From positions 1 through 64,000 of the forward strand of contig NZ_CABEGA010000073.1 of assembly GCF_901521055.1 (NCBI RefSeq): a DNA stretch of 64,000 bases, in the 5' to 3' direction. This DNA is from Cellulomonas hominis. GTDB lineage: Bacteria; Actinomycetota; Actinomycetes; Actinomycetales; Cellulomonadaceae. The notes under the pieces were generated by a model. The model was not told the origin of the DNA, did not search any database, and worked only from the letters and a program-made list of their open reading frames with translations. Both the position numbers and the translations under genes were made by a program. Positions 10,087 to 52,300 of the stretch are shown here, piece after piece (position 1 is the first letter of the stretch; each line of letters starts with the position of its first letter).

Positions 10087-11073
10087 GTGCCTCGACCCGA
10101 CCCCGCCCCCGCTGCGGTGGCCCTGCACCGCGGGACGCCGCCCGTGCGCACACCCGCGGAGCGCGAGCGCCGCGCCGCCGAGCTCGTCGCCGCCCGGACG
10201 CGGCGGCGTCGCATCAGCCCCGCCTACGCCTACGTCGCGCCCTGGTTCGTCGCGTTCGGCCTGTTCGCGCTGGTGCCGATGATCATGTCGGCGGTCATGA
10301 GCTTCACCGACTGGCCCGTGATCGGCACCCCCACCTGGCGCGGCCTCGGCAACTTCACCGAGCTGGCCCGGGACGAGCAGTTCTGGCGGTCGCTGTGGGT
10401 GACCGTGCGCTTCGGCCTCGTGTCCGTCCCCCTGGGCATGGCCGCCTCGCTCGGCGTCGCGATGGTGCTGAACTCCCGCATCAAGGGCATCAGCCTCTAC
10501 CGGACGATCTACTACCTGCCGGCCGTCGTGTCCGGCGTCGCGGTGGGCCTGATCTGGCGGTGGGTGCTGGACCCGGCCGCGGGCCTCGTCAACGGCGCCC
10601 TCGGCATGCTCGGGGTGCAGGGCCCGGGCTGGCTCACCGACCCGGCGTGGGTCCTGCCCTCCTACACGATGATCGCCCTGTGGGGCGCGGGCGGCGGGAT
10701 GCTCACCTACCTGGTGGCGCTGAACGAGGTGCCGCGGGACCTCGGGGAGGCCGCGACCCTCCAGGGTGCGGGGTGGTGGGCGCGGCTCGCGTTCGTCACC
10801 CTCCCGCTGATGCGGCCGATCCTCTTCTACAACCTCGTGATGGGGATCATCGGCGCGTTCAAGAAGTTCAACGACGCGTACGTGCTCGGTGGTGCCGGCG
10901 GCGAGGGCAACTTCGTGATGCTGCACATCTACCGGACCGCGTTCGAGCACTTCCGCATGGGCTACGCCTCGGCGATGTCGTGGGTGTTCCTGGTCGTCGT
11001 CCTGGCCGCCACCGCCCTGGTGTTCCGCTTCAGCGACTTCTGGACCTTCTCCCGCGCGAACGAGGAGTCATGA
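10087..11073 (+). CDS. Sugar ABC transporter permease, MalF-like (set 2)
   Basis: The 328-aa permease starts at a GTG preceded by GGAGGATCC. An extended, basic cytoplasmic N-terminus of about 45 residues precedes six predicted helices. The EAA-type loop is EAATLQGAGWWARLAFVTLP. NDAYVLGGAGGEGN near the last periplasmic loop is typical of MalF-like sugar permeases. It overlaps the next permease by four bases (ATGA). Confidence 0.93.
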   Translation: MPRPDPAPAAVALHRGTPPVRTPAERERRAAELVAARTRRRRISPAYAYVAPWFVAFGLFALVPMIMSAVMSFTDWPVIGTPTWRGLGNFTELARDEQFWRSLWVTVRFGLVSVPLGMAASLGVAMVLNSRIKGISLYRTIYYLPAVVSGVAVGLIWRWVLDPAAGLVNGALGMLGVQGPGWLTDPAWVLPSYTMIALWGAGGGMLTYLVALNEVPRDLGEAATLQGAGWWARLAFVTLPLMRPILFYNLVMGIIGAFKKFNDAYVLGGAGGEGNFVMLHIYRTAFEHFRMGYASAMSWVFLVVVLAATALVFRFSDFWTFSRANEES

Positions 11074-11978
11074 CGGCCGCCGACCCGCGCCGGGGGCGGG
11101 TGCTCGCCGTGGCCGCCGCCCGCCGCCGTGCGCACCGGCGCCGCACCTGGCACCGCTCGGTCGCCAAGCACGCGATGCTGTCGGTCGTCGCCCTGTCGAT
11201 GCTGCTGCCGTTCGCGTGGATGGTCACGACGTCGCTGAAGCCGGACGGCGACGTGTTCTCGATCCCGCCGCAGTGGCTCCCCTCGGACCCGCAGTGGCAG
11301 CACTACCGCGAGGTCTTCGAGGCGCTCCCGTTCGCCCGGTTCTTCCTCAACACCGCGCTCTACACGCTCGCCGTGATGGCCGGTGAGGTCGTGGTGTCGA
11401 TCGTCGTGGCGTACGGCTTCGCCCGGTTCGAGTTCCGGTGGAAGAAGCCGCTGTTCCTGTTCCTCCTGGTGACGATCATGCTGCCCGGCGAGATCACCAT
11501 CGTGCCCGGGTACATCTTCTGGGCGGAGATCGGGGACCGCCTCGGCGTCGAGCTGATCAACACCTACTGGCCGCTGATCCTCCCCGCGCTCGGCGGGCAG
11601 GCGGTGCACGTGTTCTTCCTGTTCCAGTTCTTCCGGTCGATCCCGCGGGACTTCGCCGAGGCGGCCTACATGAACGGCGCCGGCTGGTGGGCGATCCTCT
11701 GGCGCGTCTTCGTCCCCATGTCCCGCCCGGCGATCGTCACCGTCGCGGTCACCGCCTTCATGGGCACCTGGAACGCCTTCCTCGGGCCGCTGATCTACCT
11801 CAACGACGTCGAGAAGTTCACCGTCCAGGTGGGCCTCACGATGTTCCGCGGCCAGTTCGAGACCGACTGGCCGCTCCTCATGGCCGCGACCACGCTCTCG
11901 ATCGTCCCCGTGCTCGTCCTGTTCTTCACCATGCAGCGGTACTTCGTGCCGTCCCACACGTCCGAGGCGGTCCGGTGA
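11070..11978 (+). CDS. Sugar ABC transporter permease, MalG-like (set 2)
   Basis: The 302-aa partner permease begins at the ATG within the ATGA junction (11070). A long basic N-terminal segment is followed by six predicted helices. The coupling loop is EAAYMNGAGWWAILWRVFVP, and a MalG-like GTWNAFLGPL motif follows. Its stop overlaps the GTG of the DUF1861-like gene (GTGA), so that protein is made together with the transporter. Confidence 0.93.
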   Translation: MTAADPRRGRVLAVAAARRRAHRRRTWHRSVAKHAMLSVVALSMLLPFAWMVTTSLKPDGDVFSIPPQWLPSDPQWQHYREVFEALPFARFFLNTALYTLAVMAGEVVVSIVVAYGFARFEFRWKKPLFLFLLVTIMLPGEITIVPGYIFWAEIGDRLGVELINTYWPLILPALGGQAVHVFFLFQFFRSIPRDFAEAAYMNGAGWWAILWRVFVPMSRPAIVTVAVTAFMGTWNAFLGPLIYLNDVEKFTVQVGLTMFRGQFETDWPLLMAATTLSIVPVLVLFFTMQRYFVPSHTSEAVR

Positions 11979-12949
11979 CCGCCGCCCCTGCCGAGAGCGA
12001 GGCCCCCGTGCCCCCGACCGTCCGCACCGATCAGCTGCTGGCCGCGTACCGCGGGTCCGGCCACGGTCCCCGCGCCGTACGCCGCCTGGCGTTCGACGGC
12101 GTCGGTGACCGCGACGTCTACAACGTCTCGGCGCCGTTCGCAGGGCCGGACGGGACGCTCCTGCTGGCCGGCCGCGTGGAGCACCGGGCCGACGAGCGGT
12201 CCGAGACCGTCCTCTTCGGCCGCGGCGACGACGGCACCTGGCGGCCGCTGCCCGGCGCCGCACGGCCGGCGCTGCAGGACCCGTTCGTGTTCCAGCACGA
12301 CGGCGCGACGCACCTCGGCGGGGTCGAGGTCGTGGAGGTGCCGGACGCCCCGCTCCCCGACGGGCGGCCGACCCTGCTGTACCGGACCGTGGTGCTGCGT
12401 CTGGTCGACCCGTGGCACCCCGCGTCGGCGTTCGCGGGGCCGTGGGGCATGAAGGACCTCCGGTTCGCCGAGCTGCGCGACGGCCGGCTCGCCGTGCTGA
12501 CGCGGCCCCAGGGCGGCTCGGACGGGCGGGGCCGGATCGGCGTGACCGTCGTCCCGTCGCTCGCCGCGCTCACCCTCGCGGACGTGGCGACGGCTCCGCG
12601 CCTCGAGCACCTGTTCGCCGCCGACGAGTGGGGCGGGGTCAACCAGGCGGCGGTGCTCGACGACGGGACGCTCGGGCTGCTCGGTCACATCGCCCGGTTC
12701 GACGCCGCCGGCGACCGCCACTACTACCCGTTCGCCTTCGTGCTCGACCCCGGGACCCTCGCGTACACCGCCCCCCGTCTGCTCTTCGAGCGCGCCGACC
12801 TGCCCCCGGGCGCGAGCAAGCGGCCGGACCTCGCGGACGTCGTGTTCCCCGGTGCGATGGTGCCGCGCGAGGGCGGCGTGACCGTGTACTGCGGCGCCGG
12901 CGACGCCGAGGCCTTCGAGGTCGACCTCGACCCGGTGCACGAGGTCTGA
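11975..12949 (+). CDS. DUF1861-like beta-propeller protein, possible glycan-active enzyme
   Basis: The 324-aa soluble protein has no signal peptide. Repeated propeller-like strands are visible: VYNVSAPF near residue 48, QDPFVFQHDG near 108, GMKDLRFAELRDGRLAV near 165, and late acidic motifs DVVFPGAM and DAEAFEVDL. The pattern resembles DUF1861 proteins, which share the fold of GH43/GH62/GH130-type propellers. Recurrent Asp and Glu residues at blade starts could form an active site, but no activity can be assigned. The GTG start overlaps the permease stop by four bases. Placement in the LacI-controlled operon suggests a role in breaking down or sensing the imported sugar. Confidence 0.6.
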   Translation: MTAAPAESEAPVPPTVRTDQLLAAYRGSGHGPRAVRRLAFDGVGDRDVYNVSAPFAGPDGTLLLAGRVEHRADERSETVLFGRGDDGTWRPLPGAARPALQDPFVFQHDGATHLGGVEVVEVPDAPLPDGRPTLLYRTVVLRLVDPWHPASAFAGPWGMKDLRFAELRDGRLAVLTRPQGGSDGRGRIGVTVVPSLAALTLADVATAPRLEHLFAADEWGGVNQAAVLDDGTLGLLGHIARFDAAGDRHYYPFAFVLDPGTLAYTAPRLLFERADLPPGASKRPDLADVVFPGAMVPREGGVTVYCGAGDAEAFEVDLDPVHEV

Positions 12950-12952
12950 GCG

Positions 12953-14662
<1,710 letters not shown>

Positions 14663-37044: not shown

Positions 37045-38085
37045 GTGGAGTCCCAGAACCACTACTACGGCCACAGCAGCGCCCTCGCCCGGTACGCCGG
37101 CCTGACCCGGCCGCGGCACCTGCCCGGTCTCCTGCAGCACGGGTGGACGGCGGCGTCCCCGCTGGCCACGCACTTCCGCGACTTCCCGGCGGTCGGTGCG
37201 CCCGGCGGGCGCCGGGACCGCTCGCTGTTCGTCTGGTCCCACCGCTCCCGCGCGTGGGACCCCGCGTCCGAGGACCGTCGCAGCGTGGAGGTCGGCGCGC
37301 CGTGGCACTACCTGTGCGCCGTCGCCGGCGACCGGCCGGCCGGGACCGGCGCCAGGAGCGGCACCGTCATCCTCCCGGTCCACGGCATCGCCACGCAGCC
37401 GCTGCTCGGCGACCACGCCTCCGTCGCCCGCGCCTGGGCGGCGACGGAGGGCCCGGCGACCGTGTGCCTCTACCACGTCGAGGCCGGCGACCCCCGCGTG
37501 GTCGAGGCCTACGCCGCGGCGGGGCACCGGCTCGTCACGCTCGGCACCCGCACGGACCCCGCGTTCCTCGGGCGGCTGCACACCCTGCTGACCGGGGCGG
37601 CGCGCGTCGTGTCCAACCGGTTGTCCACGCCGGTCGTGTACGCGGCGTCCCTGGGCATCGACGCGACCGTGACCGGAGACGCGATGCGGCTCGCCGGTGA
37701 GCGCCAGGACGACCCCGGGACGCTCGCCGGGCGCTGGCCGGAGTTCTACGAGCCCGGCACGTCGCTGGCCGAGCGCACCGCCGTCGCACGGGCCGAGACC
37801 GGCGCGGACGCGCTGCTCCCCCCGGACGAGCTGCGCCGGCTGCTCGGCTGGGACCGCCGCCACCCGGGGCCGTGGCTCGACCACTGGGTGCGCGCCCCGT
37901 TCGCCCGCGCGGCGACCCAGCTGCGCCGCCGCGCGTCCGGGCCGCAGGCGCACGCGCCCGCCGGGGACGTGCCGTCGCTGTCGTTCGGGGCGTGGTTCGC
38001 GGCGGCGACCGAGTACCTGCCGCGTCCCCTGGGTGCCGCCCCGGACGCCCCGGGTGCGCCGCTGCCGGTCGGCGTGGGCGCCTGA
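37045..38085 (+). CDS. Uncharacterised surface-polysaccharide-locus protein, possible GT-B transferase
   Basis: The 346-aa soluble protein is not recognised with confidence. Features seen are an LLQHGW motif near residue 31, LFVWSHRS near 67, GTVILPVHGIATQP near 110, TVCLYHVEAGDPRVVEAYAAAGH near 145 and ARVVSNRLSTPVVYAASLG near 190. The last, with a polar residue before a helix that contacts a nucleotide in GT-B enzymes, recalls polysialyltransferase-like and capsule transferases. The start is a GTG seven bases after TAGGCT (37032-37037), a leaderless-like position. It is divergent from the GT2 gene and convergent with the WecD-like gene. It could transfer pseudaminic acid or Fuc4NAc; this is a guess. 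Confidence 0.72.
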   Translation: MESQNHYYGHSSALARYAGLTRPRHLPGLLQHGWTAASPLATHFRDFPAVGAPGGRRDRSLFVWSHRSRAWDPASEDRRSVEVGAPWHYLCAVAGDRPAGTGARSGTVILPVHGIATQPLLGDHASVARAWAATEGPATVCLYHVEAGDPRVVEAYAAAGHRLVTLGTRTDPAFLGRLHTLLTGAARVVSNRLSTPVVYAASLGIDATVTGDAMRLAGERQDDPGTLAGRWPEFYEPGTSLAERTAVARAETGADALLPPDELRRLLGWDRRHPGPWLDHWVRAPFARAATQLRRRASGPQAHAPAGDVPSLSFGAWFAAATEYLPRPLGAAPDAPGAPLPVGVGA

Positions 38086-38110: not shown

Positions 38111-38902
38111 TCAGCGGGCCCGCGCCGCCCGCAGCGTCTCGCGATCCACGAGGTGCACCGTCTCGACCGCCGCGAACGGCCGCAGGCCGGCGCGTGCCCA
38201 TGCCCGCTGGACCCGCACGTTGTGCACCTGCGTGGAGATGACGAGGCGCGACAGCCCGCGCTCCAGCGCCCATGCCTGCACCGCCACGAGGAGGTCGCCG
38301 TAGAGCCCCCGGCCCTGTGCCGACGGGACGAGACCGGCCAGCAGCACCTCGACGTGGTCGTCGGCCCGTTCGAGCGTGGCCACGCCCACGCAGGCCCCGT
38401 CGACCGTCTGCACGAGCACGTCGTCGGACTCGCGCGCGAGCGAACCCGTCGCCCACTCCTCGTACCCGGCGAGCGCCGCGTCGCGGTCCAGCAGCGGGTC
38501 GGCGGTGTAGTGGTTGCCGTAGTCGGCGAACGACGAGCGCACGACCTCGCGCACCGCCGCCTCGGCGGCGTCCCCGCCCAGCTCACCCGGACCGACGACC
38601 GCGCTGCGCGCGGGCGCACCGACGGAACCGTGCTCGAGCGCCTTCTCCCAGTACGTCAGCGCGCCCGCCGGCAGCACCGCCCGGGAGCCCGACGCGAGCA
38701 GCGCGGGCACCTCCTGCCGGCCCGCGTCGTACCGCACGACCAGGACGTCGGCCGCCGAACCGGCCACCAGGGCGGCGAGCTCGTCGGGGTCGAGCGCCCC
38801 GGCGCCGATCGTCAGCCGGCTCACGGCGCGGCCGAACCGGGCGGACTCGGCGGGCGAGTCCGCGAGCACGAGGCCGGGTGCCGCGAGCTGGTCCCAGGAC
38901 AC
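38111..38902 (-). CDS. GNAT acetyltransferase, WecD-like
   Basis: The 263-aa protein has an N-terminal half that resembles the dTDP-fucosamine acetyltransferase family, and a C-terminal GNAT domain (about 110-250) with the acetyl-CoA loop LVPSAQGRGLYGDLL and STQVHNVRVQRAWARAGL. Its GTG start lies one base after the stop of the WecE-like aminotransferase, so the two probably make dTDP-4-acetamido-4,6-dideoxygalactose (Fuc4NAc) or a related sugar. The exact N-acyl product is uncertain. It is convergent with the unknown gene at 37045. Confidence 0.85.
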   Translation of the reverse strand: MSWDQLAAPGLVLADSPAESARFGRAVSRLTIGAGALDPDELAALVAGSAADVLVVRYDAGRQEVPALLASGSRAVLPAGALTYWEKALEHGSVGAPARSAVVGPGELGGDAAEAAVREVVRSSFADYGNHYTADPLLDRDAALAGYEEWATGSLARESDDVLVQTVDGACVGVATLERADDHVEVLLAGLVPSAQGRGLYGDLLVAVQAWALERGLSRLVISTQVHNVRVQRAWARAGLRPFAAVETVHLVDRETLRAARAR

Positions 38903-40095: not shown

Positions 40096-41370
40096 GTGCC
40101 CGCCGTGTCCGCCGTGTCCCGACCGGGAGGTCGGGGACGTCCCGGTCCCCGGCCGCCCGCCAGCCGGCACGCGGCACCGCGCCGACGGCGCGTGCCCGGC
40201 CCGGACCTGGGGTGGCTGGCCCTGGCCCTCGCGGTCACGGTCGCGGTCGCCGCACCGGTCCTGTTCCGGCTGAGCGCCCCGGGCGCGTCCTCCGACATCC
40301 AGTTCCACTCCGCGATGGCGGCACAGATGGTGCGCGTCGGCGGCGGCTTCGCGTACTCCACCTGGTACTGGGTGGTCCACCTGGCCAGCGGGGGCTCCGC
40401 GTCGGTCTCCGCCCTGCGCACCGCGTCGTTCGTGATGCTGCTCCTCGCCGTCGTGGCGAAGATGGTGCTCAGCTACGCGTTCGCGCGCCGGCGGGTCGCC
40501 GCCCCCGTGGCCGCGGCGGTCGCGGTCCTCGCGTGCGTGGCGATGCCGCTGATCGACCCGTCACGGCCCCGCGAGATCTACATCGGGCAGATCAGCGCGA
40601 ACGTGTGGCACAACTCGACGCTCATCTTCGCGATGCCGTTCTCGCTCCTCGCCTTCATGGCGGCGGTCCGGCTGCTCGAGCGCCCGTCCCACCTGCGCGC
40701 CCTGGTGTTCGGCCTCGCGATGGCGGTGTCGACCTCCGCCAAGCCCAACCTGACGCTGGCGCTGCTGCCCGTCGTCTGCGTGTGGCTCGTGCTGCGCCGG
40801 CCCGAGGGGCCCGGTGGCAGCCGGTGGACCGGGCTCCTGCAGGCGGTCGTCGCGGGGGTCCCGTCCGCGGCGCTGCTGCTCTTCCAGTACACGCACACGT
40901 TCGGGGAAGGTGGCGCACGGGGGACGCAGACGGTGCTCGCGCCCCTGGCGAACTGGGCGATGCTGTCGCCCGACGTGCTCGTGTCGGCCCTGGTGTCCGT
41001 GGCCGGACCGGCCGTCGCGCTCGCCGTGCTCCCGCGGGTGAGCCGGCGCCGCCCGGAGGTCGTCCTCGCCTGGTCGACGTTCACCGTGGCCGCGCTCCAG
41101 ATGGCCCTGCTCGCCGAGACCTCGCCCGAGGGCGTCGTCCTGAAGGACGGCAACTTCTTCTGGGGGGCGCACGCCGCGATGTTCCTCGTCTTCCTCGTGA
41201 CGACGACCGAGCTGTGCGCGTCGGTCCGCCCGGGACTGACAGGCCTGCGACGCGCCGGCGCCGTGGTGGCCGCGGTCCTCCTCGTGCTCCACGCCGTGTC
41301 GGGGGTCTACTACGCCGCGCGAGCGGGCGTCGACGGCTTCCCGGTGACGATGGAGCTCGACGGCAGGTGA
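40096..41370 (+). CDS. Polytopic membrane protein, GT-C-like
   Basis: The 424-aa protein has a basic N-terminus and about ten helices. The acidic motif SDIQFHSAMAAQMV follows helix 1, and STSAKPNLTLALLP lies in a cytoplasmic loop. This is the outline of a GT-C or polymerase-like surface-sugar enzyme, but no family is certain. The GTG at 40096 is six bases after TACACT (40084-40089), a leaderless promoter. It is divergent from the WecE-like gene. A second TACACT box just downstream drives the gtrA group. Confidence 0.72.
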   Translation: MPAVSAVSRPGGRGRPGPRPPASRHAAPRRRRVPGPDLGWLALALAVTVAVAAPVLFRLSAPGASSDIQFHSAMAAQMVRVGGGFAYSTWYWVVHLASGGSASVSALRTASFVMLLLAVVAKMVLSYAFARRRVAAPVAAAVAVLACVAMPLIDPSRPREIYIGQISANVWHNSTLIFAMPFSLLAFMAAVRLLERPSHLRALVFGLAMAVSTSAKPNLTLALLPVVCVWLVLRRPEGPGGSRWTGLLQAVVAGVPSAALLLFQYTHTFGEGGARGTQTVLAPLANWAMLSPDVLVSALVSVAGPAVALAVLPRVSRRRPEVVLAWSTFTVAALQMALLAETSPEGVVLKDGNFFWGAHAAMFLVFLVTTTELCASVRPGLTGLRRAGAVVAAVLLVLHAVSGVYYAARAGVDGFPVTMELDGR

Positions 41371-42888: not shown

Positions 42889-45272
42889 GCGTCGACGCCC
42901 GACGCGGCACCGCCGGGCCGGGCGGCCCGGGTCCCGACCCCGCTCCCCCGGTCGCCCGGCACGCACGGCCCGGAGCCGGGGGGACCGCGCGCCCGGTCCT
43001 GCTCGCCGCGCTCCGGTACCTGCCCACGGTCACGGCGACCGTGGTGGTGCTCGCGGTCCTGCACCGGTACGGCACCCCGGTGCCGGTCGCACTGGGGTAC
43101 CTCCTGCACCTGGCGCTCACCGCCTCCCTCCCCGGCGCGCTCGTGTGGCGGGCCGTCCGGGGCGCTCGGGTCTCGTTCGTCGAGGACGTCGCTGTCGGGA
43201 CCGCGCTGGGCCTCGCGGTCCAGGTCCTCCTGGCGTTTGCGCTGTCCCCCGTGCACCTGTCCACCTGGTCGTGGCTGTGGGCGCCGGCCGCCGTCATCGC
43301 CTCGCTCGCGGTGCGCCGCTGGCGGGTGGCCGCCTGGTCCCGCCCCGGGCCCGCCTCGACGGACCCGTTCTCCGCGTGGGTGCAGGCCGGGACCGTCGTC
43401 GCGGCCACCGTGTGGCTCGCGGCGACCGCCCTCGCAGGCAACCCCGTGACGTACGCGGACGGATCCGGTCCGTGGAGCCGGGCGATCCCCGCCTCGGTGT
43501 ACGTGGACCTGCCGTTCCACCACGCCATCGCCGCCGGCGTGGACACGTACTACCCGCTCGTCTACCCCTACCTGTACGACGAGCCGCTGCACTACCACCT
43601 GTTCGTGTACGAGCACCTGGCCGTCGCAGCGCACTCGGCCGGGCTCGACCTCACGTGGCTGCTGTACCGGACCGAACCCGTGGCCCTCGTCGCGCTCGGC
43701 GTCGTCCTGGTCGGTGTGCTGGCGCGCCGGCTGACCGGTGTCGGGTGGGCGGCTCCGCTGGCCGCCGCCGTCGTGACCCTGTCGTCGTCGGCCAACGTGT
43801 ACGGGTGGACGGCGTTCCCGTTCCAGAACCCCGGCTTCCTGCACTTCGCGACCTACCGCAGCCCGACGCAGACATTCGGCATCGCCCTGTTCCTCGCGGC
43901 CCTGACCGCCGCGGTGGCCCTGCTGCGCGGCGGCCGGCTGCGCGGGAGCCTGCCGCTGCTCGGTGTGTTCACGGTGCTCGCGTGGGGCGCCGGCGGATCG
44001 AAGTCGACCTTCCTGCCGGTCCTCGTCGCGGGTCTGGCCCTCGCCGTCGTCGTCGGTCTGGTCCTGCGGGCGGCCGCCGCCCGCGTCGCCGCCGCGCTGC
44101 TCGGCATCTCCGTCGCCGGCTTCGGGCTGCTGCTCGTGCTCGTGCTCGGCGGCCAGTCCGGCAGCCTGGCGATCACGCCGTTCACGACGACCCGGGCGTT
44201 CGCCGCGGCGCAGCTCGTCGCCGACCCGGCGAGCGGCCGCCACACCGCGATCATCACCGCGCTGGCGCTGGCGTCGTGGTTGTGCGCCGCCAGCGGGCTG
44301 CTCCTGCTCGTCCGGCGTGCCGTCCTGCGTGACGTCACCTTCTGGCTGCTCCTGGGCGTGGCAGGGGCGGGCATCGGCGCGTGCCTGCTGACCACGGCCA
44401 ACGGCCTCAGCCAGCTCTACTTCCTGTACGCGTCGTGGCCCCTCCTCGGGGTGCTCACCACGTGGGGCGTCGTGGTCGCGGTGCGCGCGTGGCCCCGGTG
44501 GACGCTGACCCTGGTACCGGCCGGCCTGCTCGCCGGGATGGTGCTGCTGTGGGCGGTTCGACGCGTCGACGGGCTCGCCGCTCCCGTCGCGGCCCCGGCA
44601 CCGGCCTTCCCGTACCGGGCGATGGCGGGACCGTGGGCCCTGCTGCTCGCCGGCGCCGTGGTGCTCGCCCTGGTCGTGGCCGCCGCCGCGCTCGTCCGGT
44701 CGCGCAGGGGTCCCGGGGTTCCCGTGGCGCCGGTGACGGCCGCCCTCGTCACCTTCAGCCTGGTGCTCACCGGCGCCGCCATGCTGCAGCGCACCACCGA
44801 GACGATCCGCGCCGCCGGGTCGGTTGTCCGCGACGGGCCCGGCCCGGGCGAGGGCTACCCCGTCCCCCGGAGCGGTGCCCTCGCGGCTCTGCTCGTGCGC
44901 GACAGCTCCTCGCCCGACGAGGTGGTCGCGACCAACGCCCACTGCTACGGGCCCCCCGAGGCGTGCGACACCCGGCACTTCTGGGTGTCCGCCCTCACGG
45001 AGCGGCGGGTCCTCGTGGAGGGCTGGGCGTACCCGGAGGGCTTCCGCCCGGGGCAGACCCGGACCAGCCCGTTCTGGGACGCCGAGCGCTACCAGGCGAA
45101 CGAGGCCGTGTTCCAGGACCCGGACGAGGCCGCGGTGGCCCGGCTCGCCGACGAGTGGGGCGTCCGCTGGCTGCTCGTGGACCGCACGCTGGGCCTCGAG
45201 AGCCCGGAGCTCCGCCGGTACGCGGAGCTCGTGCACGAGGACGACGACGCCGCGGTGTACCGGATCCGGTGA
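42885..45272 (+). CDS. Large GT-C-like membrane protein of the gtr set
   Basis: The 795-aa protein has a proline-rich cytoplasmic N-terminus and then about twelve helices. A first large loop has acidic and aromatic residues (YVDLPFHHAIAAGVDTYYP). A soluble extracytoplasmic C-terminal domain of about 200 residues contains two cysteines in AHCYGPPEACD and a WLLVDRTLG motif. It is the likely transferase that takes the lipid-linked sugar made by the two preceding genes. It starts at a GTG overlapping the GtrB-like stop (GTGA). No exact family name could be given. Confidence 0.78.
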   Translation: MSVDARRGTAGPGGPGPDPAPPVARHARPGAGGTARPVLLAALRYLPTVTATVVVLAVLHRYGTPVPVALGYLLHLALTASLPGALVWRAVRGARVSFVEDVAVGTALGLAVQVLLAFALSPVHLSTWSWLWAPAAVIASLAVRRWRVAAWSRPGPASTDPFSAWVQAGTVVAATVWLAATALAGNPVTYADGSGPWSRAIPASVYVDLPFHHAIAAGVDTYYPLVYPYLYDEPLHYHLFVYEHLAVAAHSAGLDLTWLLYRTEPVALVALGVVLVGVLARRLTGVGWAAPLAAAVVTLSSSANVYGWTAFPFQNPGFLHFATYRSPTQTFGIALFLAALTAAVALLRGGRLRGSLPLLGVFTVLAWGAGGSKSTFLPVLVAGLALAVVVGLVLRAAAARVAAALLGISVAGFGLLLVLVLGGQSGSLAITPFTTTRAFAAAQLVADPASGRHTAIITALALASWLCAASGLLLLVRRAVLRDVTFWLLLGVAGAGIGACLLTTANGLSQLYFLYASWPLLGVLTTWGVVVAVRAWPRWTLTLVPAGLLAGMVLLWAVRRVDGLAAPVAAPAPAFPYRAMAGPWALLLAGAVVLALVVAAAALVRSRRGPGVPVAPVTAALVTFSLVLTGAAMLQRTTETIRAAGSVVRDGPGPGEGYPVPRSGALAALLVRDSSSPDEVVATNAHCYGPPEACDTRHFWVSALTERRVLVEGWAYPEGFRPGQTRTSPFWDAERYQANEAVFQDPDEAAVARLADEWGVRWLLVDRTLGLESPELRRYAELVHEDDDAAVYRIR

Positions 45273-45311: not shown

Positions 45312-46787
45312 TCAGGCCCGGTCGGCCGCCGCCGGACGTGCCTGCCGGCGCACGGCGACGAACCCGCCGGCGCCCAGGAGCAGCGCCGCCCCGACCCGGG
45401 CCCAGGACCCCGCCCCGGACAGGGGCAGCAGCGCCCCCGCCGCCCCGACGACGAGCCACAGCACCACGACGAGCGGCATGACCGGCGGCCACCACGGGTG
45501 GTCGGCGACCCGGCGCTGGACGGCGGTCGTGGCGACCGCCAGGAGCAGGTACGCCACCAGGTACCCCGCGCCGATGCCGGCGAGCCCCCACACCTCGGCG
45601 AGCAGCGCCCCGGCGCCCAGCCCGACCGCCACCGCGGCGGGGGTGCTGACGGCCAGCCACCCGGTGCGCCCCCGCGCGAAGACCAGGTGGCCGCTCGCGA
45701 GGTAGACGACCGACGGCAGCGCGGCGGCGCAGGCCAGCGCGACGGCGGGGACGAGGTCGGCCGGCCGGTAGGACGCGGGCGCGGCGAACCGGACGAGCCA
45801 CGGCGCGAGCAGCGCCACGCCCCCCGCGAGCACGACCGACACCAGCGCGATCACCCGGGACGTCTCGTCGAGCACGCGACCGCGGTCCCCGGGGTGGGCG
45901 CGGTACACGACGGGCGCCCAGGCGTTGTTGAGCCCGGCCGTCACCACCGTCGCGCCCGCGCCGATCGTGAGCGCGACGTTCGCCCGCCCGCCGTCGCCCA
46001 GCACCCGGTCAGCGACGACGACGAGCCCGGCGAGCGCGAGGTAGAGCGACACCTGGTGCGGCACGGTGGGAGCCCCCACCCGCAGCGCGTCCCGGAGGCC
46101 GCGCCGGGTGAGGTGCAGCGGCCCGGAGCGGAGCACGAGCAGGAGGCCCGCGACCCCCGCGAGCAGGTACCCCCCGGTGACCCCCGACAGGTAGACCACC
46201 GCGGTCGGCCCGGCGACCGCGACCGCCACCAGGCCCGCGGCCGGGCCCACGAGGCTGGCGGCCACCGCCAGGAGCACGAACGGCCCGGGACGGTCCGCAC
46301 CGCGCAGGTACGCCTGGGCCAGCACCATCCACGCCCCGCCCGCCCCGGCGACGAGCGCGAGCAGCACCTCGACCGTGAACGGCCTCCCGAGCAGCAGCGG
46401 GGCCCAGAGCGGACCGGTGACGGCGAGCACGGTGGTGAGCAGCGTCGCCACCCCCGCACCGGCGAGCACCACACCCCGCGCGCCCGGCGCGCCGTCCGCG
46501 TCCAGCACGTACTGCCGCGTGATCGCCGCGCCCAGGCCGAGCGCGACGAGGATGTACGCGACCTGCACGACCACGGTCGCCACGGCGACCAGGTCGTACT
46601 GCGGCACGGGCAGCAGCCGGGTGACGACCGGCACGACGGCGAGCGCCGCGAGCGCCGGACCGGCCGTCGCGATCGTGTACAGCGACCCCCGCCCGAGGAC
46701 GGCGCGCGTGGCGGACGGCTGCCCGGCCGCCACGACGGGGTCGCCGGCCGCGGTCTCCGAGGGGTCGCCGGGGACGGGTGAGCTCAC
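45312..46787 (-). CDS. Wzx-type flippase (oligosaccharide-lipid translocase)
   Basis: The 491-aa protein has about 12-14 hydrophobic helices and the polysaccharide-transporter layout: a helix start LGRGSLYTIATAGPAL, RLLPVPQYDLVAVAT, and the conserved loop ALRVGAPTVPHQVSLYLALA. It moves a lipid-linked oligosaccharide to the outer face. Its GTG start lies seven bases after the pseC stop, so it belongs to the pseB-pseC operon and is likely to carry a pseudaminic-acid-containing unit. A second flippase is at 56702. Confidence 0.87.
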   Translation of the reverse strand: MSSPVPGDPSETAAGDPVVAAGQPSATRAVLGRGSLYTIATAGPALAALAVVPVVTRLLPVPQYDLVAVATVVVQVAYILVALGLGAAITRQYVLDADGAPGARGVVLAGAGVATLLTTVLAVTGPLWAPLLLGRPFTVEVLLALVAGAGGAWMVLAQAYLRGADRPGPFVLLAVAASLVGPAAGLVAVAVAGPTAVVYLSGVTGGYLLAGVAGLLLVLRSGPLHLTRRGLRDALRVGAPTVPHQVSLYLALAGLVVVADRVLGDGGRANVALTIGAGATVVTAGLNNAWAPVVYRAHPGDRGRVLDETSRVIALVSVVLAGGVALLAPWLVRFAAPASYRPADLVPAVALACAAALPSVVYLASGHLVFARGRTGWLAVSTPAAVAVGLGAGALLAEVWGLAGIGAGYLVAYLLLAVATTAVQRRVADHPWWPPVMPLVVVLWLVVGAAGALLPLSGAGSWARVGAALLLGAGGFVAVRRQARPAAADRA

Positions 46788-46794
46788 GGCGGGC

Positions 46795-47925
46795 TCAGCG
46801 GCCCGTGACCGCGCGGCGCACCTCGTCGACCACCCGGTCCACCTGCGCGTCCGTCAGGTCCGGGAACAGCGGCAGCGAGATCTCCTGCCGGTAGTACTCC
46901 TCGGCGTTCGGGCACATCCCCCGGCGGTACCCCAGGTCCTCGAAGACGGGGTGCCAGTACGCGGGGACGTAGTTCACCTGCACGCCGATGCCCGCGGCCC
47001 GCAGGCTCTCGAACACCTCGCGACGACGGCCCTCGAGCACGCGCATCGGGTACAGGTGCCAGGCGGGCTTCGCCTCCGCCCGGCGGGCGGGCGTCAGCAC
47101 GCCGTCGAGGTCCCGCAGGCCGTCGTCGTACCGGGCGTGGATCTCGGCGCGGCGGGCCCGGAAGGCCTCGAGGCGCCGCAGCTGGGAGGTGCCGAGCGCG
47201 GCCAGCACGTCCGGGAGCCGGTAGTTCAGGCCGAACTCGTGCACCTCCTGGTGCCACGGGCCCTCGTCCGGGAACCGCTGCAGCGCGGGGTCGCGGACCA
47301 GCCCGTGGTTCTTGAACCGGCGTGCCCGGGCCTCCAGCGCGGGGTCGGCGGTGACGACGGCGCCCCCCTCGGCGGTGGTGAGGTTCTTGGTCGGGAAGAA
47401 CGACAGCGTCGTGAGGTCGGCGAACGAGCCCACGGGCCGGCCGTGCCACGTCGAGCCGATCGAGTGCGCGGCGTCCTCCAGGAAGAGCGCGCCGTGCTCG
47501 TGCGCGAGGGCCGCGAACGCGTCCGGGCTGGCGGGCAGGCCGGCGTAGTCGACCGCCGCCACCACCCGGGTGCGCCCGGTGATCGCCGCGCGCGCGGCGT
47601 CCACGTCCAGGTTCCCGGTGTCGGGCTCCACGTCGGCGAACACCACCGTGGCACCGTGCAGCGCCGCGCCGGCCGCCGTGGCGACGAACGTCAGCGGCGT
47701 GGTCACGACCTCGTCACCCGGGCCGACCCCCGCCGCCGCGTAGGCCACGTGCAGCGCCGCGGTCCCGGATGTCACGCTGAGGGCAGCCCCGCCGCCGACG
47801 TGCTCGGACACCGCGGCCTCGAACGCGTCGACCGCCGGACCGGTCGTCAGCCAGTCGCTGCGGAGCGCGTCGACGACGGCCGCGACGTCCGCGTCGTCGA
47901 TCGACTGGCGCCCGTAGGGCAGCAC
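46795..47925 (-). CDS. pseC: UDP-4-amino-4,6-dideoxy-L-AltNAc transaminase
   Basis: The 376-aa PLP enzyme performs the second step of pseudaminic acid synthesis, aminating the UDP-4-keto product of PseB. The PLP lysine is in SFFPTKNLTTAEGG. The N-terminus LPYGRQSIDDADVAAV and the NHGLVRDP and VQVNYVPAYWHPVF segments match PseC. The start is a GTG ten bases after the pseB stop. The partners PseB, PseF, PseG, PseH and PseI are all close by, which strengthens the assignment. Confidence 0.93.
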   Translation of the reverse strand: MLPYGRQSIDDADVAAVVDALRSDWLTTGPAVDAFEAAVSEHVGGGAALSVTSGTAALHVAYAAAGVGPGDEVVTTPLTFVATAAGAALHGATVVFADVEPDTGNLDVDAARAAITGRTRVVAAVDYAGLPASPDAFAALAHEHGALFLEDAAHSIGSTWHGRPVGSFADLTTLSFFPTKNLTTAEGGAVVTADPALEARARRFKNHGLVRDPALQRFPDEGPWHQEVHEFGLNYRLPDVLAALGTSQLRRLEAFRARRAEIHARYDDGLRDLDGVLTPARRAEAKPAWHLYPMRVLEGRRREVFESLRAAGIGVQVNYVPAYWHPVFEDLGYRRGMCPNAEEYYRQEISLPLFPDLTDAQVDRVVDEVRRAVTGR

Positions 47926-47935
47926 CGCCGCCGCC

Positions 47936-48919
47936 TCAGGCGAACCGCGCGACCATGTCGCGCAGCTCGTCGGTGCCCAGCCACAGGTCGTTCGTGTCGG
48001 ACCGGTAGGTCCAGCCGTCCTCGACCGGCTCGCCGCCCGCGGGCGTCTCGTAGCCCCAGCCGCTCACGTAGGGCATGACGACGTACCGGTCGCCGAGCCG
48101 CACCGTCCGGCGCGAGTCGTCGGGGGCGATCATCTCCTCGTGCAGCTTCTCGCCGGGGCGGATGCCGATCTCGTGCATCGCCGCACCGGGGGCGACGGCC
48201 TGCGCCAGGTCCGTGACCTTCATGCTCGGGATGCGGGGCACGTACAGCTCGCCGCCCGTCATCAGCTCGAACGAGTCCAGGACGAACTGCACGGCCTGCG
48301 GGAGGGTGATCCAGAACCGGGTCATCCGCAGGTCCGTGATCGGCAGCGACGCGCCCTCCTCGGCGAGCCGCCGGAACACCGGGATGACCGAGCCGCGCGA
48401 GCCCATGACGTTGCCGTACCGCACCACCGAGAACCGCGTGTCGTACGCCGCGGCGTAGTGGTTGCCGGACACGAACATGCGGTCCGCGCACAGCTTCGTC
48501 GCGCCGTACAGGTTGATCGGGCTCGACGCCTTGTCGGTGGACAGGGCCACGACCTTCTTCACGCCCGCGTCGATGGAGGCGTCGATGATGTTCTGCGAGC
48601 CGTTGACGTTGGTCTGCACGTACTCGAAGGGGTTGTACTCCGCCGTGTCGACCTGCTTCAGCGCCGCCGCGTGCACCACGTAGTCCACGCCGTGCATGGC
48701 CCGGTCGAGCCGCTGCCGGTCACGGATGTCCCCGATGAACCAGCGCAGGCGGGGGTCGTCGTCGAAGTGGCGGCGCACCTCGTACTGCTTGAGCTCGTCC
48801 CGGCTGAAGACCACGAGCCGGCGCGGGTCGTGGTGGTCCAGCACCTCGCGGAGGAACGCCTTCCCGAAGGACCCCGTGCCTCCGGTGATGAGGATCGAGG
48901 CCCCGGTGAGCAGAGACAT
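47936..48919 (-). CDS. pseB: UDP-GlcNAc 4,6-dehydratase (inverting)
   Basis: The 327-aa SDR enzyme performs the first step of the pathway (UDP-GlcNAc to the 4-keto-6-deoxy-L-altro product). ILITGGTGSFGKAFL is the nucleotide-binding motif. STDKASSPINLYGATK carries the catalytic Asp, Lys and Tyr set. RFSVVRYGNVMGSRGSV and RMTRFWI are PseB signatures. The ATG at 48919 follows a GGAG nine bases upstream. It is divergent from the cytidylyltransferase gene; only 81 bases separate the two starts, so their promoters overlap. Confidence 0.95.
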   Translation of the reverse strand: MSLLTGASILITGGTGSFGKAFLREVLDHHDPRRLVVFSRDELKQYEVRRHFDDDPRLRWFIGDIRDRQRLDRAMHGVDYVVHAAALKQVDTAEYNPFEYVQTNVNGSQNIIDASIDAGVKKVVALSTDKASSPINLYGATKLCADRMFVSGNHYAAAYDTRFSVVRYGNVMGSRGSVIPVFRRLAEEGASLPITDLRMTRFWITLPQAVQFVLDSFELMTGGELYVPRIPSMKVTDLAQAVAPGAAMHEIGIRPGEKLHEEMIAPDDSRRTVRLGDRYVVMPYVSGWGYETPAGGEPVEDGWTYRSDTNDLWLGTDELRDMVARFA

Positions 48920-49000
48920 GCCGTGGAACTCCAGACGGTCGGTCGGTGGCGCGCGGCGCCGCCGCGCGGGGCGGTGCGCCCGATGCAGCATCATGGCACG

Positions 49001-49756
49001 GTGCACAACGAGCCCACCTCCCGCCGTGCCCGCGTCGTCGCCGTGATCCAGGCCAGGACGGGCTCCTCCCGGCTGCCGGGCAAGGTGCTGCTGCCGCTGG
49101 CGGGTCGCCCGGTGCTGGGCTGGGTGGTGCGCGCCGCGCTGGCCGCGCCCGGCGTGGACGAGGTCGTGGTCGCCACGTCCACCGCCCCGGGGGACGACGC
49201 CGTCGCCGACCTGGCGGCGGCGCTCGGGGTCCTGGTCGTGCGCGGCAGCGAGCTCGACGTCCTGGCCCGGTTCGTGGCCGCACGGGACGCCGTGGACGCC
49301 GACGCCGTGGTCCGGCTGACCGCGGACTGCCCGCTGCTGGACCCCGACCTCATCGGTGCCGTGGTCGGCGCGTGGCGGGCGGACCCCACGCTGGACTACG
49401 TCGCGACCACGCTGGTCCGGACGCTGCCGCGCGGGCTCGACGTGGAGCTCGTGTCGTCCGCCGCGCTCGACGCCGCCGACACCGTGGCGCGCGACCACCA
49501 CCGGGTGCACGTCACCTCCGCTCTGTACGCGCACCCCGGCGAGTTCCGGACGCTCGGGCTGGTGGTGGCGCCGGACGCGCACGACCTGCGGGTGACCCTG
49601 GACACGGCGCAGGACGCGGCGCTGCTCGACGCCCTGGCCACCGAGCTGGGCGACGCCCCGGTCCGGTGGCGCCAGCTCGTCGCCCTGCTGCGCTCCCGCC
49701 CCGACCTCGTGGCGCTGAACGCGGACGTGCGGCAGAAGGCGCTCGAGGAGGCGTGA
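49001..49756 (+). CDS. SpsF-type cytidylyltransferase, probable CMP-pseudaminic acid synthetase
   Basis: The 251-aa nucleotidyltransferase opens with VVAVIQARTGSSRLPGKVL, the SpsF form of the CTP-binding loop, followed by VVRLTADCPLLDPD and VTLDTAQD. The Campylobacter PseF form is different (IPARGGSKRIP), so this gene fills the PseF role with a diverged enzyme. The GTG at 49001 is six bases after CATCAT (48989-48994), a weak leaderless box. The stop and the next start overlap by one base (TGATG). Confidence 0.85.
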   Translation: MHNEPTSRRARVVAVIQARTGSSRLPGKVLLPLAGRPVLGWVVRAALAAPGVDEVVVATSTAPGDDAVADLAAALGVLVVRGSELDVLARFVAARDAVDADAVVRLTADCPLLDPDLIGAVVGAWRADPTLDYVATTLVRTLPRGLDVELVSSAALDAADTVARDHHRVHVTSALYAHPGEFRTLGLVVAPDAHDLRVTLDTAQDAALLDALATELGDAPVRWRQLVALLRSRPDLVALNADVRQKALEEA

Positions 49757-51228
49757 TGCGCGTCCTGCTGCGCTGCGACGCCAGCGCGGGGTCCGGGGTG
49801 GGCCACCTGGTCCGCTGCCTGGCCCTGGCGGAGGCCGCCCGCTCCCGGGGGTGGGACGTCGCGCTGCTCGGCGACGTCGACGCGCCGCTCGGCCGGCGGC
49901 TCGTGGCGGGCGCCGGGCTGACGGTGCTCCCGGCGCCCGATGACCCCGCGGGGCTGGTCGTCGCGGCCGCCCGCGCCGACGTCCTGCACGTGGACCACTA
50001 CGGCGTCGCCGGCGACCTGCGCACGCCCGGCGGGCCGCTGGTCTCGTCGATGGAGGACGGCACCTTCGGTCGGCGGCCCGCCGACGTGGTGGTGGACTCC
50101 ACCCTGGGCGCCGAGCACGCGCACCGGCCCGACGACGGCTCCGGGACGGTCCTGCTCGGGGTGGCCTACGCGCCGCTGCGGGCGTCCGTGCGTGCGGCGC
50201 GAGCCGCCCGGGCAGCGCAGCCGGCGCAGGACGTCACCACCGCGCCCGGAGCCGCGGCTCGTTCCGGCGACGTCCTCGTGGTCATGGGCGGCACCGACGC
50301 GTTCGGCGTCAGCGCCGCCGCCGCCCGGGTGGCGCGGCTGGCGGGCGCGACGCGGGTGCGGGTGGTCGCCGGGGCCGACGTCGCCGAGCGGGTGCGTGCC
50401 GCGGAGCCCGGCGCGGAGGTGCTGCCGCCGCAGGAGGACCTCCCGGCTCTCGCGGCCACGGCGGGCGTCGTGGTGAGCGCGGCCGGGACGTCCGTGTGGG
50501 AGCTCGCGTGCGTCGGGGTGCCGACGGCGCTGGTCGCGGTCACCGAGAACCAGCGTGCCGGCTACGAGCGCGCCGTGACCGCGGGGATCGCCGCCGGGCT
50601 CGGGCCGGTCCAGGACGTGCGAGGTGCCGGCGCGGGCCCGGTCGGCGCCCTGCGCGGCCTGCTCGCCGACCCCGCCCGCGCCGCCGCGCTCGGGACCGCC
50701 GGGCGGGCCCTGGTCGACGGGCTCGGCGCGGACCGGGTGCTCGACGCCTGGTGGGCGGCCACCGGGCGGCCCGTGCTCGCCGCCCGGGGTGCCGGCCCCG
50801 CGGACGCGGACCTGCTCCTGGGCTGGCGCAACGACCCGGCGACCCGCGAGTCGTCCCGCTCGCAGGACCCGGTCGCGCGCGCCGACCACGTGCGCTGGCT
50901 CGACGGCGTGCTCGCCGACCCCGACCGGGTGCTGCTCGTCGTCGAGCACACCGGGCACCCCGCGGGCACCGTGCGGTTCGACCGGGTGGACGACGCGCTG
51001 TGGGAGGTGTCGATCACCGTGGCGCCCCACGCCCGGGGCCGGGGCCTCGCCGCCCGGGTGCTGGCTGCCGGGGAGGCGGCCTGGCGGGACCGCGTCGGCG
51101 ACGGCCCCGCCGTGCTCGCGTGCGTGCGACCCGGCAACCGCGCGTCGGCCCGGCTGTTCGAGGCGGCGGGCTACCGCCGCCGGGACCAGCCGGGCGAGGA
51201 CGGGCTCGACGCGTACGTGAAGCCCTGA
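49756..51228 (+). CDS. PseG-PseH fusion: nucleotide-sugar hydrolase and N-acetyltransferase
   Basis: The 490-aa protein joins two consecutive-pathway enzymes. Residues 1 to about 335 match PseG (RCDASAGSGVGHLVRCLALAEA split as RCDASAGSGVGH and LVRCLALAEA; the catalytic His is at 17, as in the characterised enzyme; VVMGGTDAFG and AAGTSVWELACVGVPT follow). Residues about 345-490 are a GNAT domain like PseH (LLGWRNDPATRE, VAPHARGRGLAARVL). PseH acetylates the PseC product and PseG then removes UDP, so fusion could channel the intermediate. The ATG overlaps the preceding stop by one base. It is convergent with pseI. Confidence 0.92.
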   Translation: MRVLLRCDASAGSGVGHLVRCLALAEAARSRGWDVALLGDVDAPLGRRLVAGAGLTVLPAPDDPAGLVVAAARADVLHVDHYGVAGDLRTPGGPLVSSMEDGTFGRRPADVVVDSTLGAEHAHRPDDGSGTVLLGVAYAPLRASVRAARAARAAQPAQDVTTAPGAAARSGDVLVVMGGTDAFGVSAAAARVARLAGATRVRVVAGADVAERVRAAEPGAEVLPPQEDLPALAATAGVVVSAAGTSVWELACVGVPTALVAVTENQRAGYERAVTAGIAAGLGPVQDVRGAGAGPVGALRGLLADPARAAALGTAGRALVDGLGADRVLDAWWAATGRPVLAARGAGPADADLLLGWRNDPATRESSRSQDPVARADHVRWLDGVLADPDRVLLVVEHTGHPAGTVRFDRVDDALWEVSITVAPHARGRGLAARVLAAGEAAWRDRVGDGPAVLACVRPGNRASARLFEAAGYRRRDQPGEDGLDAYVKP

Positions 51229-51241
51229 CGCGGCGTCGGGG

Positions 51242-52300
51242 TCAGACGAGCTCCCACGTCAGCGCGGTGCCCCGCGCCACGTCCGTCCGGAAGGTGCGGC
51301 CGAGCACCACGTCGAGGTGCGCCGGCTCCAGGCCCCCCGCCGGGCGGATCGAGCGCACGTTGTCCTCGGTGACGACGTCGCCCGCGCGCACGTCCGCCAC
51401 CACGTAGAGCGAGCGCCGCAGCCGGCGGCTCTCGGCCTCCCCGGCGGTGGGGTCGAGCCGCACCGTGCCGAGCGCCTGCCAGGCGACCTCGGTCTCCGTG
51501 GCCAGCGCGGCCAGCTCGTGCGGCTCCAGCGAGAAGTCGGAGTCCACGCCGCCGTCGGCCCGCGACAGCGTCACGTGCTTCTCGACCAGGCAGGCACCCA
51601 GCGCCACGGCCGCGACCGCCGCGCCGATGCCCTTGGTGTGGTCCGACAGGCCGACCACCACGTCGAAGGCGTCCCGGATGACGGGGATCGACCGCAGGTT
51701 CGACTCGGTGGGCAGCGCCGGGTACGACGAGGTGCACGCCAGCACGACGACCTGGTCGTTGCCCTCCGCGCGGATCGTGCGGACCGCCGTGTCGACGTCC
51801 GTGATCGAGGCGGCGCCGGTCGAGATGACGACCGGCTTGCCCGTGCGCGCGACCTGGCGCAGGAGCGCGAGGTCGCCGATCTCGAGCGAGGCGATCTTGT
51901 ACAGGTCGGCACCGAGGTCCTCGAGCAGCTCGACCGCGGTCGCGTCGAAGGGGCTCGAGAACGGCACCAGGCCGTGCTCCCGCGCCCGCTCGAAGATCGG
52001 CGCGTGCCACTCCCAGGGGGTGTGCGCCTCCTCGTACAGCTGGTAGAGGTTCTTGCCGCCCCACAGCTCGTGCCCGTCGGACACGCGGAAGGCCGGGCCG
52101 TCGGCGTCGATGGTGATCGTGTCGGCCCGGTACGTCTGGAGCTTCAGCGCCTGCGCGCCGGACTCGGCGACCGCGTCGACGATCGCGAGCGCCCGGCCGA
52201 GGTCGCCGTTGTGGTTGCCGGACATCTCGGCGACGACGAACGGGCGGTGGTGGGCGTCGACGGTGTGCGCGCCGACCTTCAGGGAACGGTCGCTGGTCAC
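51242..52300 (-). CDS. pseI: Pseudaminic acid synthase
   Basis: The 352-aa NeuB-family enzyme condenses 2,4-diacetamido-2,4,6-trideoxy-L-altrose with phosphoenolpyruvate. The PseI-specific segment ELWGGKNLYQLYEEAHTPWEW distinguishes it from sialic acid synthase, in the shorter blocks ELWGGKNLYQLYEE and AHTPWEWHAPIF. The barrel motifs EMSGNHNGD, SSPFDATAV, YKIASLEIGD and LSDHTKGI follow. A C-terminal SAF domain covers about residues 285-352. The GTG start overlaps the rmlD stop by four bases, so it is co-expressed with rmlD. Confidence 0.95.
   Translation of the reverse strand: MTSDRSLKVGAHTVDAHHRPFVVAEMSGNHNGDLGRALAIVDAVAESGAQALKLQTYRADTITIDADGPAFRVSDGHELWGGKNLYQLYEEAHTPWEWHAPIFERAREHGLVPFSSPFDATAVELLEDLGADLYKIASLEIGDLALLRQVARTGKPVVISTGAASITDVDTAVRTIRAEGNDQVVVLACTSSYPALPTESNLRSIPVIRDAFDVVVGLSDHTKGIGAAVAAVALGACLVEKHVTLSRADGGVDSDFSLEPHELAALATETEVAWQALGTVRLDPTAGEAESRRLRRSLYVVADVRAGDVVTEDNVRSIRPAGGLEPAHLDVVLGRTFRTDVARGTALTWELV

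Follow-up and report, generated by a model that had tools for sequence, protein, structure and literature searches.

Here we present FAM, as we call it, a large and so far unnamed family of mostly actinobacterial proteins, which is most likely a new family of CMP-nonulosonate transferases. The member under study is encoded in a window of 64,000 nucleotides of Cellulomonas hominis DNA (GC 75.7%; surrounding genome 4.07 Mb, G000:C73), and genomic context supports well its assignment as a nonulosonate transferase for a cell-surface glycan, an assignment in which we have good confidence. That role is well supported and kinship with polysialyltransferases is not; a new family is the most likely explanation. 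In its full form, toward which we lean, the explanation is a mainly actinobacterial glycosyltransferase (GT) family that would use CMP-pseudaminic (Pse) or CMP-legionaminic (Leg) acid, through a donor site that lacks the HP motif known from sialyl-, Kdo- and Pse-transferases and is made up of PxHG, GxR and SNR-(S/T), and would serve teichulosonic acids as well as, where it occurs fused to other domains, some flagellin glycans. Pseudaminic and legionaminic acid are bacterial sialic-acid-like sugars, and the pathway to pseudaminate is known. Sequence alone makes it difficult to identify the transferases of nonulosonates, of which, to our knowledge, only a few have been demonstrated.

The candidate is a genuine gene, and purifying selection acts on it. 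The GC content of its three codon positions (0.78/0.62/0.97) has the strong third-position bias typical of its genome. Its closest relatives, at loci L019 and L020, encode proteins of 84 and 79% identity and keep the same GTG start, and the changes that separate them from it are predominantly at third positions, with dN/dS values of 0.21 and 0.18; it is this common start, together with a ratio near 0.2, that identifies the gene as real and selected. A longer upstream frame (from 36574) was set aside as mechanical, the relatives likewise beginning at the GTG of 37045. The features discussed below are collected in the table.

Table. Features of the candidate gene, its conserved motifs and the neighbouring genes, in coordinates of the window; residue numbers refer to the candidate protein.
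Feature	Coordinates	Strand	Remarks
Candidate CMP-nonulosonate transferase gene (FAM)	37045..38085	+	346 aa, GTG start
NHYYGH motif	37057..37074	+	residues 5-10; N5, Y8, G9, H10 invariant in 77 members
QHGW motif	37135..37146	+	residues 31-34, invariant; directly after strand 28-30 of N-terminal domain
PVHG motif	37375..37386	+	residues 111-114; P111, H113 invariant; after strand 107-109, C-terminal domain
GxR motif	37543..37551	+	residues 167-169; G167, R169 invariant; after strand 162-165
SNRLSTPVVYAASLG	37612..37656	+	residues 190-204; loop and helix after strand 187-190
ExG motif	37795..37803	+	residues 251-253; E251, G253 invariant
GNAT-domain protein	38111..38902	-	convergent with the candidate gene; relatives near FAM in Kribbella loci
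Flippase-like polysaccharide export protein	45312..46787	-	Polysacc_synt, PF01943
PseC-like DegT/DnrJ aminotransferase	46795..47925	-	from order and clustering with DegT relatives
PseB-like dehydratase	47936..48994	-	cluster representative matches PF02719
PseF-like cytidylyltransferase	48983..49756	+	PF02348
PseG-like hydrolase fused to C-terminal GNAT domain	49756..51228	+	GNAT domain at residues 346-474; PseG putative, from sequence and order
NeuB/PseI-type synthase	51242..52300	-	PF03102 match at G000:C73:51464-52183

An earlier note on this DNA had recognised no family for the protein, and this was borne out: neither Pfam nor NCBIfam gives a match at a threshold as loose as E<=10, and the PDB sequences give no significant one. 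The profile search which that note had proposed was run on the protein, on 77 homologues scanned singly and on the family profile, with Pfam, NCBIfam and PDB sequences as targets, and found no known family and nothing significant. In one scan of GTDB species genomes, at least 241 relatives were confirmed; the best 80 of the 241 were retained for the analysis of their loci, and 77 members were aligned. Among these best 80, all except one from Pseudomonas (79 of 80) are actinobacterial, from Cellulomonas, Arsenicicoccus, Pseudonocardia, Brachybacterium, Arthrobacter, Actinoplanes, Micromonospora, Hamadaea, Kribbella and other genera. The distribution is patchy: FAM occurs in 9 of the 149 genomes sampled from the order and in 13 of the 395 sampled from the class, counts that come from different samples and thresholds, and in 1 of 199 Pseudomonas genomes. 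The viral contigs searched held no relatives, and a plasmid collection held one weakly similar, unannotated match from Nonomuraea.

Throughout the 77 aligned members, 25 residues are invariant: N5, Y8, G9, H10, G28, Q31, H32, G33, W34, W64, Y89 and L90, followed by P111, H113, G160, G167, R169, N191, Y199, G204, G211, W231, E251, G253 and W269. The SNRLSTPVVYAASLG motif that the earlier note had pointed out near residue 195 is indeed present, and around its invariant N191, Y199 and G204 it is conserved at S190 (75 of 77), R192 (74 of 77) and L193 (74 of 77), while position 195 is serine or threonine in all 77 members and position 194 in 37. Conservation across so many members means that this region is not a product of chance.

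An AlphaFold2 model built on the 77-sequence alignment (pLDDT 87.5, pTM 0.87) predicts two domains, a small N-terminal one with strands 28-30, 60-63 and 80-82, and a five-stranded Rossmann-like C-terminal one with strands 107-109, 139-142, 162-165, 187-190 and 206-209. The invariant motifs QHGW, PxHG, GxR and SNR are found directly at strand ends in the model, where they would lie at the position of the interdomain cleft of GT-B enzymes; QHGW, coming right after strand 28-30, would for that reason face the cleft, and the SNRLSTPVVYAASLG loop and helix would occupy the position of the donor phosphate. Structure prediction had also been proposed as a check on the fold. Each of the 50 best structure matches in the PDB (Foldseek) is either a GT-B glycosyltransferase or a UDP-GlcNAc 2-epimerase, an enzyme with that same fold, but the matches are weak (best E 2.6e-4, TM about 0.3). 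The C-terminal domain was folded alone to sharpen the match (pLDDT 90.3), and it found generic Rossmann proteins as well as glycosyltransferases, with no preference for sialyltransferases; a fold search of BFVD gave nothing at E<=0.001. Because the best matches are of this quality and the C-terminal domain is unspecific, we regard the predicted protein as likely GT-B-like, not as established to be so. Membrane binding by a basic C-terminal helix (residues 276-298, five K/R against one D/E) was also considered and is not claimed, the hydrophobic moment being low.

The known GT-B enzymes that use CMP-sugars carry a (K/R)xHP motif and phosphate-binding serines, to which the retaining Kdo enzymes add QxxxD (PMC12887879). 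In the candidate, SNRLSTA comes after strand four of the Rossmann-like C-terminal domain, the position at which those enzymes have their serines, so the likeness is one of position and does not imply descent from polysialyltransferases. For CMP-sugar TRANSFERASES kinship, hhalign comparisons of FAM with the polysialyltransferase (PF07388) and KpsS-type (PF05159) sets returned probabilities below 1% (0.1% for PF07388), and the positive control, polysialyltransferases against the KpsS set, 90.7%; there was no signal between FAM and the PseG and GT1 sets. The FAM profile is shallow (Neff about 3), which makes a missed match weak evidence on ancestry. The (K/R)xHP motif is absent in nearly all 77 members (at position 144, 54 of them have W and 3 have P), QxxxD is not evident among their conserved columns, and the PF05159, PF07388 and PF01973 profiles found no match among them. 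The suggestion that the motif recalls the helix of polysialyltransferase-like GT-B enzymes can therefore be kept for its position after the fourth strand, but as judged from sequence comparison the kinship it implied is not supported. FAM might still belong to the polysialyltransferase/KpsS superfamily (GT38/52/99/107/118/140), having diverged too far for profile comparison to show it, a question of ancestry that is compatible with the explanation favoured here and to which we would answer a doubtful no: the SNRLSTA loop, by where it lies and what it contains, and the reduced N-terminal domain recall the group (PMC12887879), and KrkA (GT140) has been reported to have negligible sequence similarity to its structural relatives, whereas the hhalign values for both sets, the unconserved HP, the missing QxxxD signal and the fact that no KpsC, WbbB or sialyltransferase structure is among the 50 best PDB matches argue against membership.

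Within the window, candidates are present for all six steps of the pseudaminate pathway, those for PseG, PseH and PseC being assigned by sequence, gene order and membership of broad Pfam families and not by equivalog models. The GNAT domain at the end of the PseG-like protein is likely PseH, and the two functions are apparently fused in one protein of 490 aa; Brachybacterium has a protein of similar length (L036:17827-19326, 499 aa). The cluster of the flippase-like protein recurs beside FAM in 17 loci, and relatives of ABC transporters and LCP proteins lie just beyond the end of the window. Between the candidate gene and the pseudaminate genes are two proteins of 392 and 743 aa (40192-41370 and 43041-45272), neither with a Pfam match, and relatives of the longer one recur in other loci (cluster c19). 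Three transferase families were searched in the genome of the window, GT29, GT42, GT52 and GT80 being outside this search, and no KpsS-like (PF05159), polysialyltransferase (PF07388) or Maf (PF01973) gene was found; in the window, those further genes for sugar transfer that were scanned close to the cluster are of the GT2 type.

The association of FAM with nonulosonate genes holds far beyond this genome. In every one of the 13 genomes of the class, from 11 genera, in which FAM was called at E<=1e-8, a NeuB gene (E<1e-60) is found on the contig that carries it, no more than about 15 to 16 kb away. A strong NeuB (E<1e-30) occurs anywhere in the genome in about 120 of the 395, so that co-occurrence in 13 of 13 would arise by chance with a probability of about 0.30^13, roughly 2e-7, if kinship among the genomes is ignored, and close linkage beyond mere co-occurrence is far less likely still. 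Genes were also predicted in the 80 retained loci, and their proteins were clustered and identified with Pfam: 32 of the 80 have, within 10 kb, one or more genes from the group PseF, PseG, NeuB and the CMP-sugar cytidylyltransferase of the Arthrobacter type. Found repeatedly beside FAM are a dehydratase of the PseB type (Polysacc_synt_2), an aminotransferase of the PseC type (DegT), a cytidylyltransferase of the PseF type (CTP_transf_3), a PseG-like protein and a NeuB synthase, with a GNAT protein (PseH type) in several loci. FAM relatives lie within complete pseudaminate operons. With C1 standing for a second protein that adjoins FAM, the order PseB-PseC-FAM-C1-PseF-PseG is repeated in Hamadaea, Micromonospora and Nucisporomicrobium, Kribbella has PseB-PseC-C1-FAM-PseF, and Pedococcus, Brachybacterium and Pseudonocardia have pseudaminate-type genes close to FAM. 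The Arthrobacter loci hold instead a legionaminate-type set, namely NeuB, a NeuC-like (UDP-GlcNAc-2-epimerase-like) epimerase, a PtmE-type CBS-nucleotidyltransferase and a cytidylyltransferase. Since FAM accompanies sets of both types, the common element is a CMP-nonulosonate and not the chemistry of pseudaminate alone.

Several further genes of these loci deserve mention. Beside NeuB and a PseH-like GNAT gene, three loci (L058:13794-16621, L072:12157-15014 and L091:2693-5662) have a module of a carrier-protein-like gene (about 83 aa, by eye), an AMP-binding ligase (by Pfam match) and an SDR, a module that may serve to activate an unusual acyl group destined for the nonulosonate. In Brachybacterium paraconglomeratum, the FAM gene is flanked by proteins of 1179 and 1118 aa (L036:6456-9995 and 11068-14424), which share one cluster, the former with a GT1 domain.

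The single Pseudomonas relative offers support of an independent kind. In Pseudomonas alcaliphila (L089:10001-14278), FAM forms the N-terminal ~270 residues of a 1425-aa protein that also has two Pfam GT2 domains, and its gene has a hook-associated gene of the flgL type on one side and a flagellin gene on the other, both recognised by sequence inspection; the genome has relatives of PseC, PseF, PseG, NeuB and PseB in a separate cluster. It is the fusion to glycosyltransferase domains, at a flagellin locus, in a genome equipped to make nonulosonates, that supports the transferase role independently. The C-terminal region of the same protein appears GT1-like by eye. A GT-B- or Rossmann-like enzyme that is no transferase but makes or modifies the nonulosonate, such as an epimerase or an acyl- or amidino-modifying enzyme, would also be at home inside biosynthesis operons between PseC and PseF, and it could draw on the UDP-GlcNAc 2-epimerases among the structure matches and on the dehydrogenases and reductases that the C-terminal domain alone also matches; we nevertheless judge it very improbable, for the six pathway steps already have their candidates in the window, FAM accompanies two different pathways, and the GT2 fusion favours transfer. 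With the linkage to NeuB and to the Pse and Leg sets, this fusion, and a genome with none of the three transferase families searched, the proposal in the earlier note that the gene is a candidate for the missing CMP-nonulosonate transferase has become a strong one.

Most of the FAM loci outside the 32 come from Actinoplanes and Micromonospora, where FAM is paired with C1 and with GT1 and GT2 genes, and many of these members have other glycosyltransferases adjoining and no nonulosonate genes within 10 kb. Of 19 genomes whose FAM gene sits outside nonulosonate clusters, 18 encode NeuB elsewhere, the exception being a MAG. The C1 protein itself (about 440-614 aa; L061:10893-12407, L058:10837-12681, L081:8667-9989 and ~43 more loci) is methyltransferase-like by eye and has no Pfam or PDB match. 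It is encoded directly downstream of FAM in 40 loci, and it is present with 44 of the 51 short FAM members as against 2 of the 26 long-tailed ones. Loci of this kind could also be expected if FAM were a GT-B transferase that acts on the same polymer with an ordinary UDP-, GDP- or dTDP-sugar donor, placing a sugar onto the nonulosonate or building a part of the backbone that always accompanies nonulosonates. The Foldseek neighbours are mostly UDP- and dTDP-sugar enzymes, which agrees with such a donor, as does the lack of HP. There is also a precedent in Bacillus subtilis, where SpsA and SpsB, transferase-like and encoded beside legionaminate genes, are dispensable for legionaminate transfer (PMC7439481), so gene association can mislead, and FAM might likewise add another sugar. 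We nonetheless hold this to be unlikely, because FAM tracks pseudaminate sets, legionaminate-type sets and the Pseudomonas flagellin locus, whose glycans probably share little but the nonulosonate, and because KpsS-type, polysialyltransferase and Maf enzymes are all missing from the genome of the window.

Against the explanation favoured here stand, besides the SpsB precedent and the members with no nonulosonate genes nearby, the weak fold match, the lack of a profile link to the CMP-sugar transferases tested and that of the HP motif. Weighing these against the context, we infer a transferase that takes its sugar from a CMP-linked donor. In the window, that donor would most likely be CMP-pseudaminic acid, made by the PseB-PseC-PseF-PseG/H-PseI genes (46.8-52.3 kb). 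The FAM protein, cytoplasmic and probably GT-B-like, would bind it in the C-terminal domain at PxHG, GxR and SNRLST, the residues that may do the chemistry; the acceptor would come in by way of the small N-terminal domain with its QHGW, and the sugar would be transferred in the interdomain cleft. The acceptor would most likely be a growing surface glycan, either a cell-wall glycopolymer or a lipid-linked precursor, and the finished glycan would then be exported and fixed to the wall, steps for which the flippase-like gene and the ABC-transporter and LCP relatives past the window are candidates. Cell-wall polymers with nonulosonates (teichulosonic acids) occur in actinobacteria such as Streptomyces coelicolor (PMC7831098).

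If the explanation favoured here is true, one unnamed family, at no fewer than 241 loci, explains pseudaminic and legionaminic acid on the wall polymers of many actinobacteria and supplies the transferase that is missing for teichulosonic acids and, in its fused form, for certain flagellin glycans, and hundreds of unassigned genes become markers for nonulosonate-decorated surfaces. Among known systems, KpsS1 of Acinetobacter baumannii (GT118), a retaining Pse5Ac7Ac transferase in the account cited in PMC12887879, belongs to a GT-B-like group with reduced N-terminal domain and would have its donor type, CMP-pseudaminic acid, in common with FAM; it differs in that FAM has no profile similarity to the KpsS-type set and no HP motif, and in that KpsS1 serves a Gram-negative capsule whereas FAM sits in actinobacterial cell-wall loci. 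GtfS (Tanf_01245) and TFUB4_00887 of Tannerella forsythia transfer Pse and Leg derivatives (PMC6388019), and their genes sit with the CMP-nonulosonate pathway, with paralogues for Pse or Leg as FAM seems to have, but they are about 445 aa long with sialyltransferase-like motifs, whereas FAM proteins have 270-350 aa and no HP. FAM resembles the polysialyltransferases (GT38, PF07388) in the position of a Ser/Thr-containing loop, past the fourth C-terminal strand, but has neither a profile match to them nor the HP motif. SpsB of B. subtilis is likewise a putative glycosyltransferase beside legionaminate genes, but it has HP and DEG motifs, and its deletion leaves legionaminate transfer in place (PMC7439481). 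The Maf flagellin transferases (PF01973), of which neither FAM nor the genome of the window has a match, resemble FAM in the nonulosonate transfer proposed for it and in the flagellin locus of its Pseudomonas relative. Should FAM act as we propose, its donor site would differ from those of all the families compared here.
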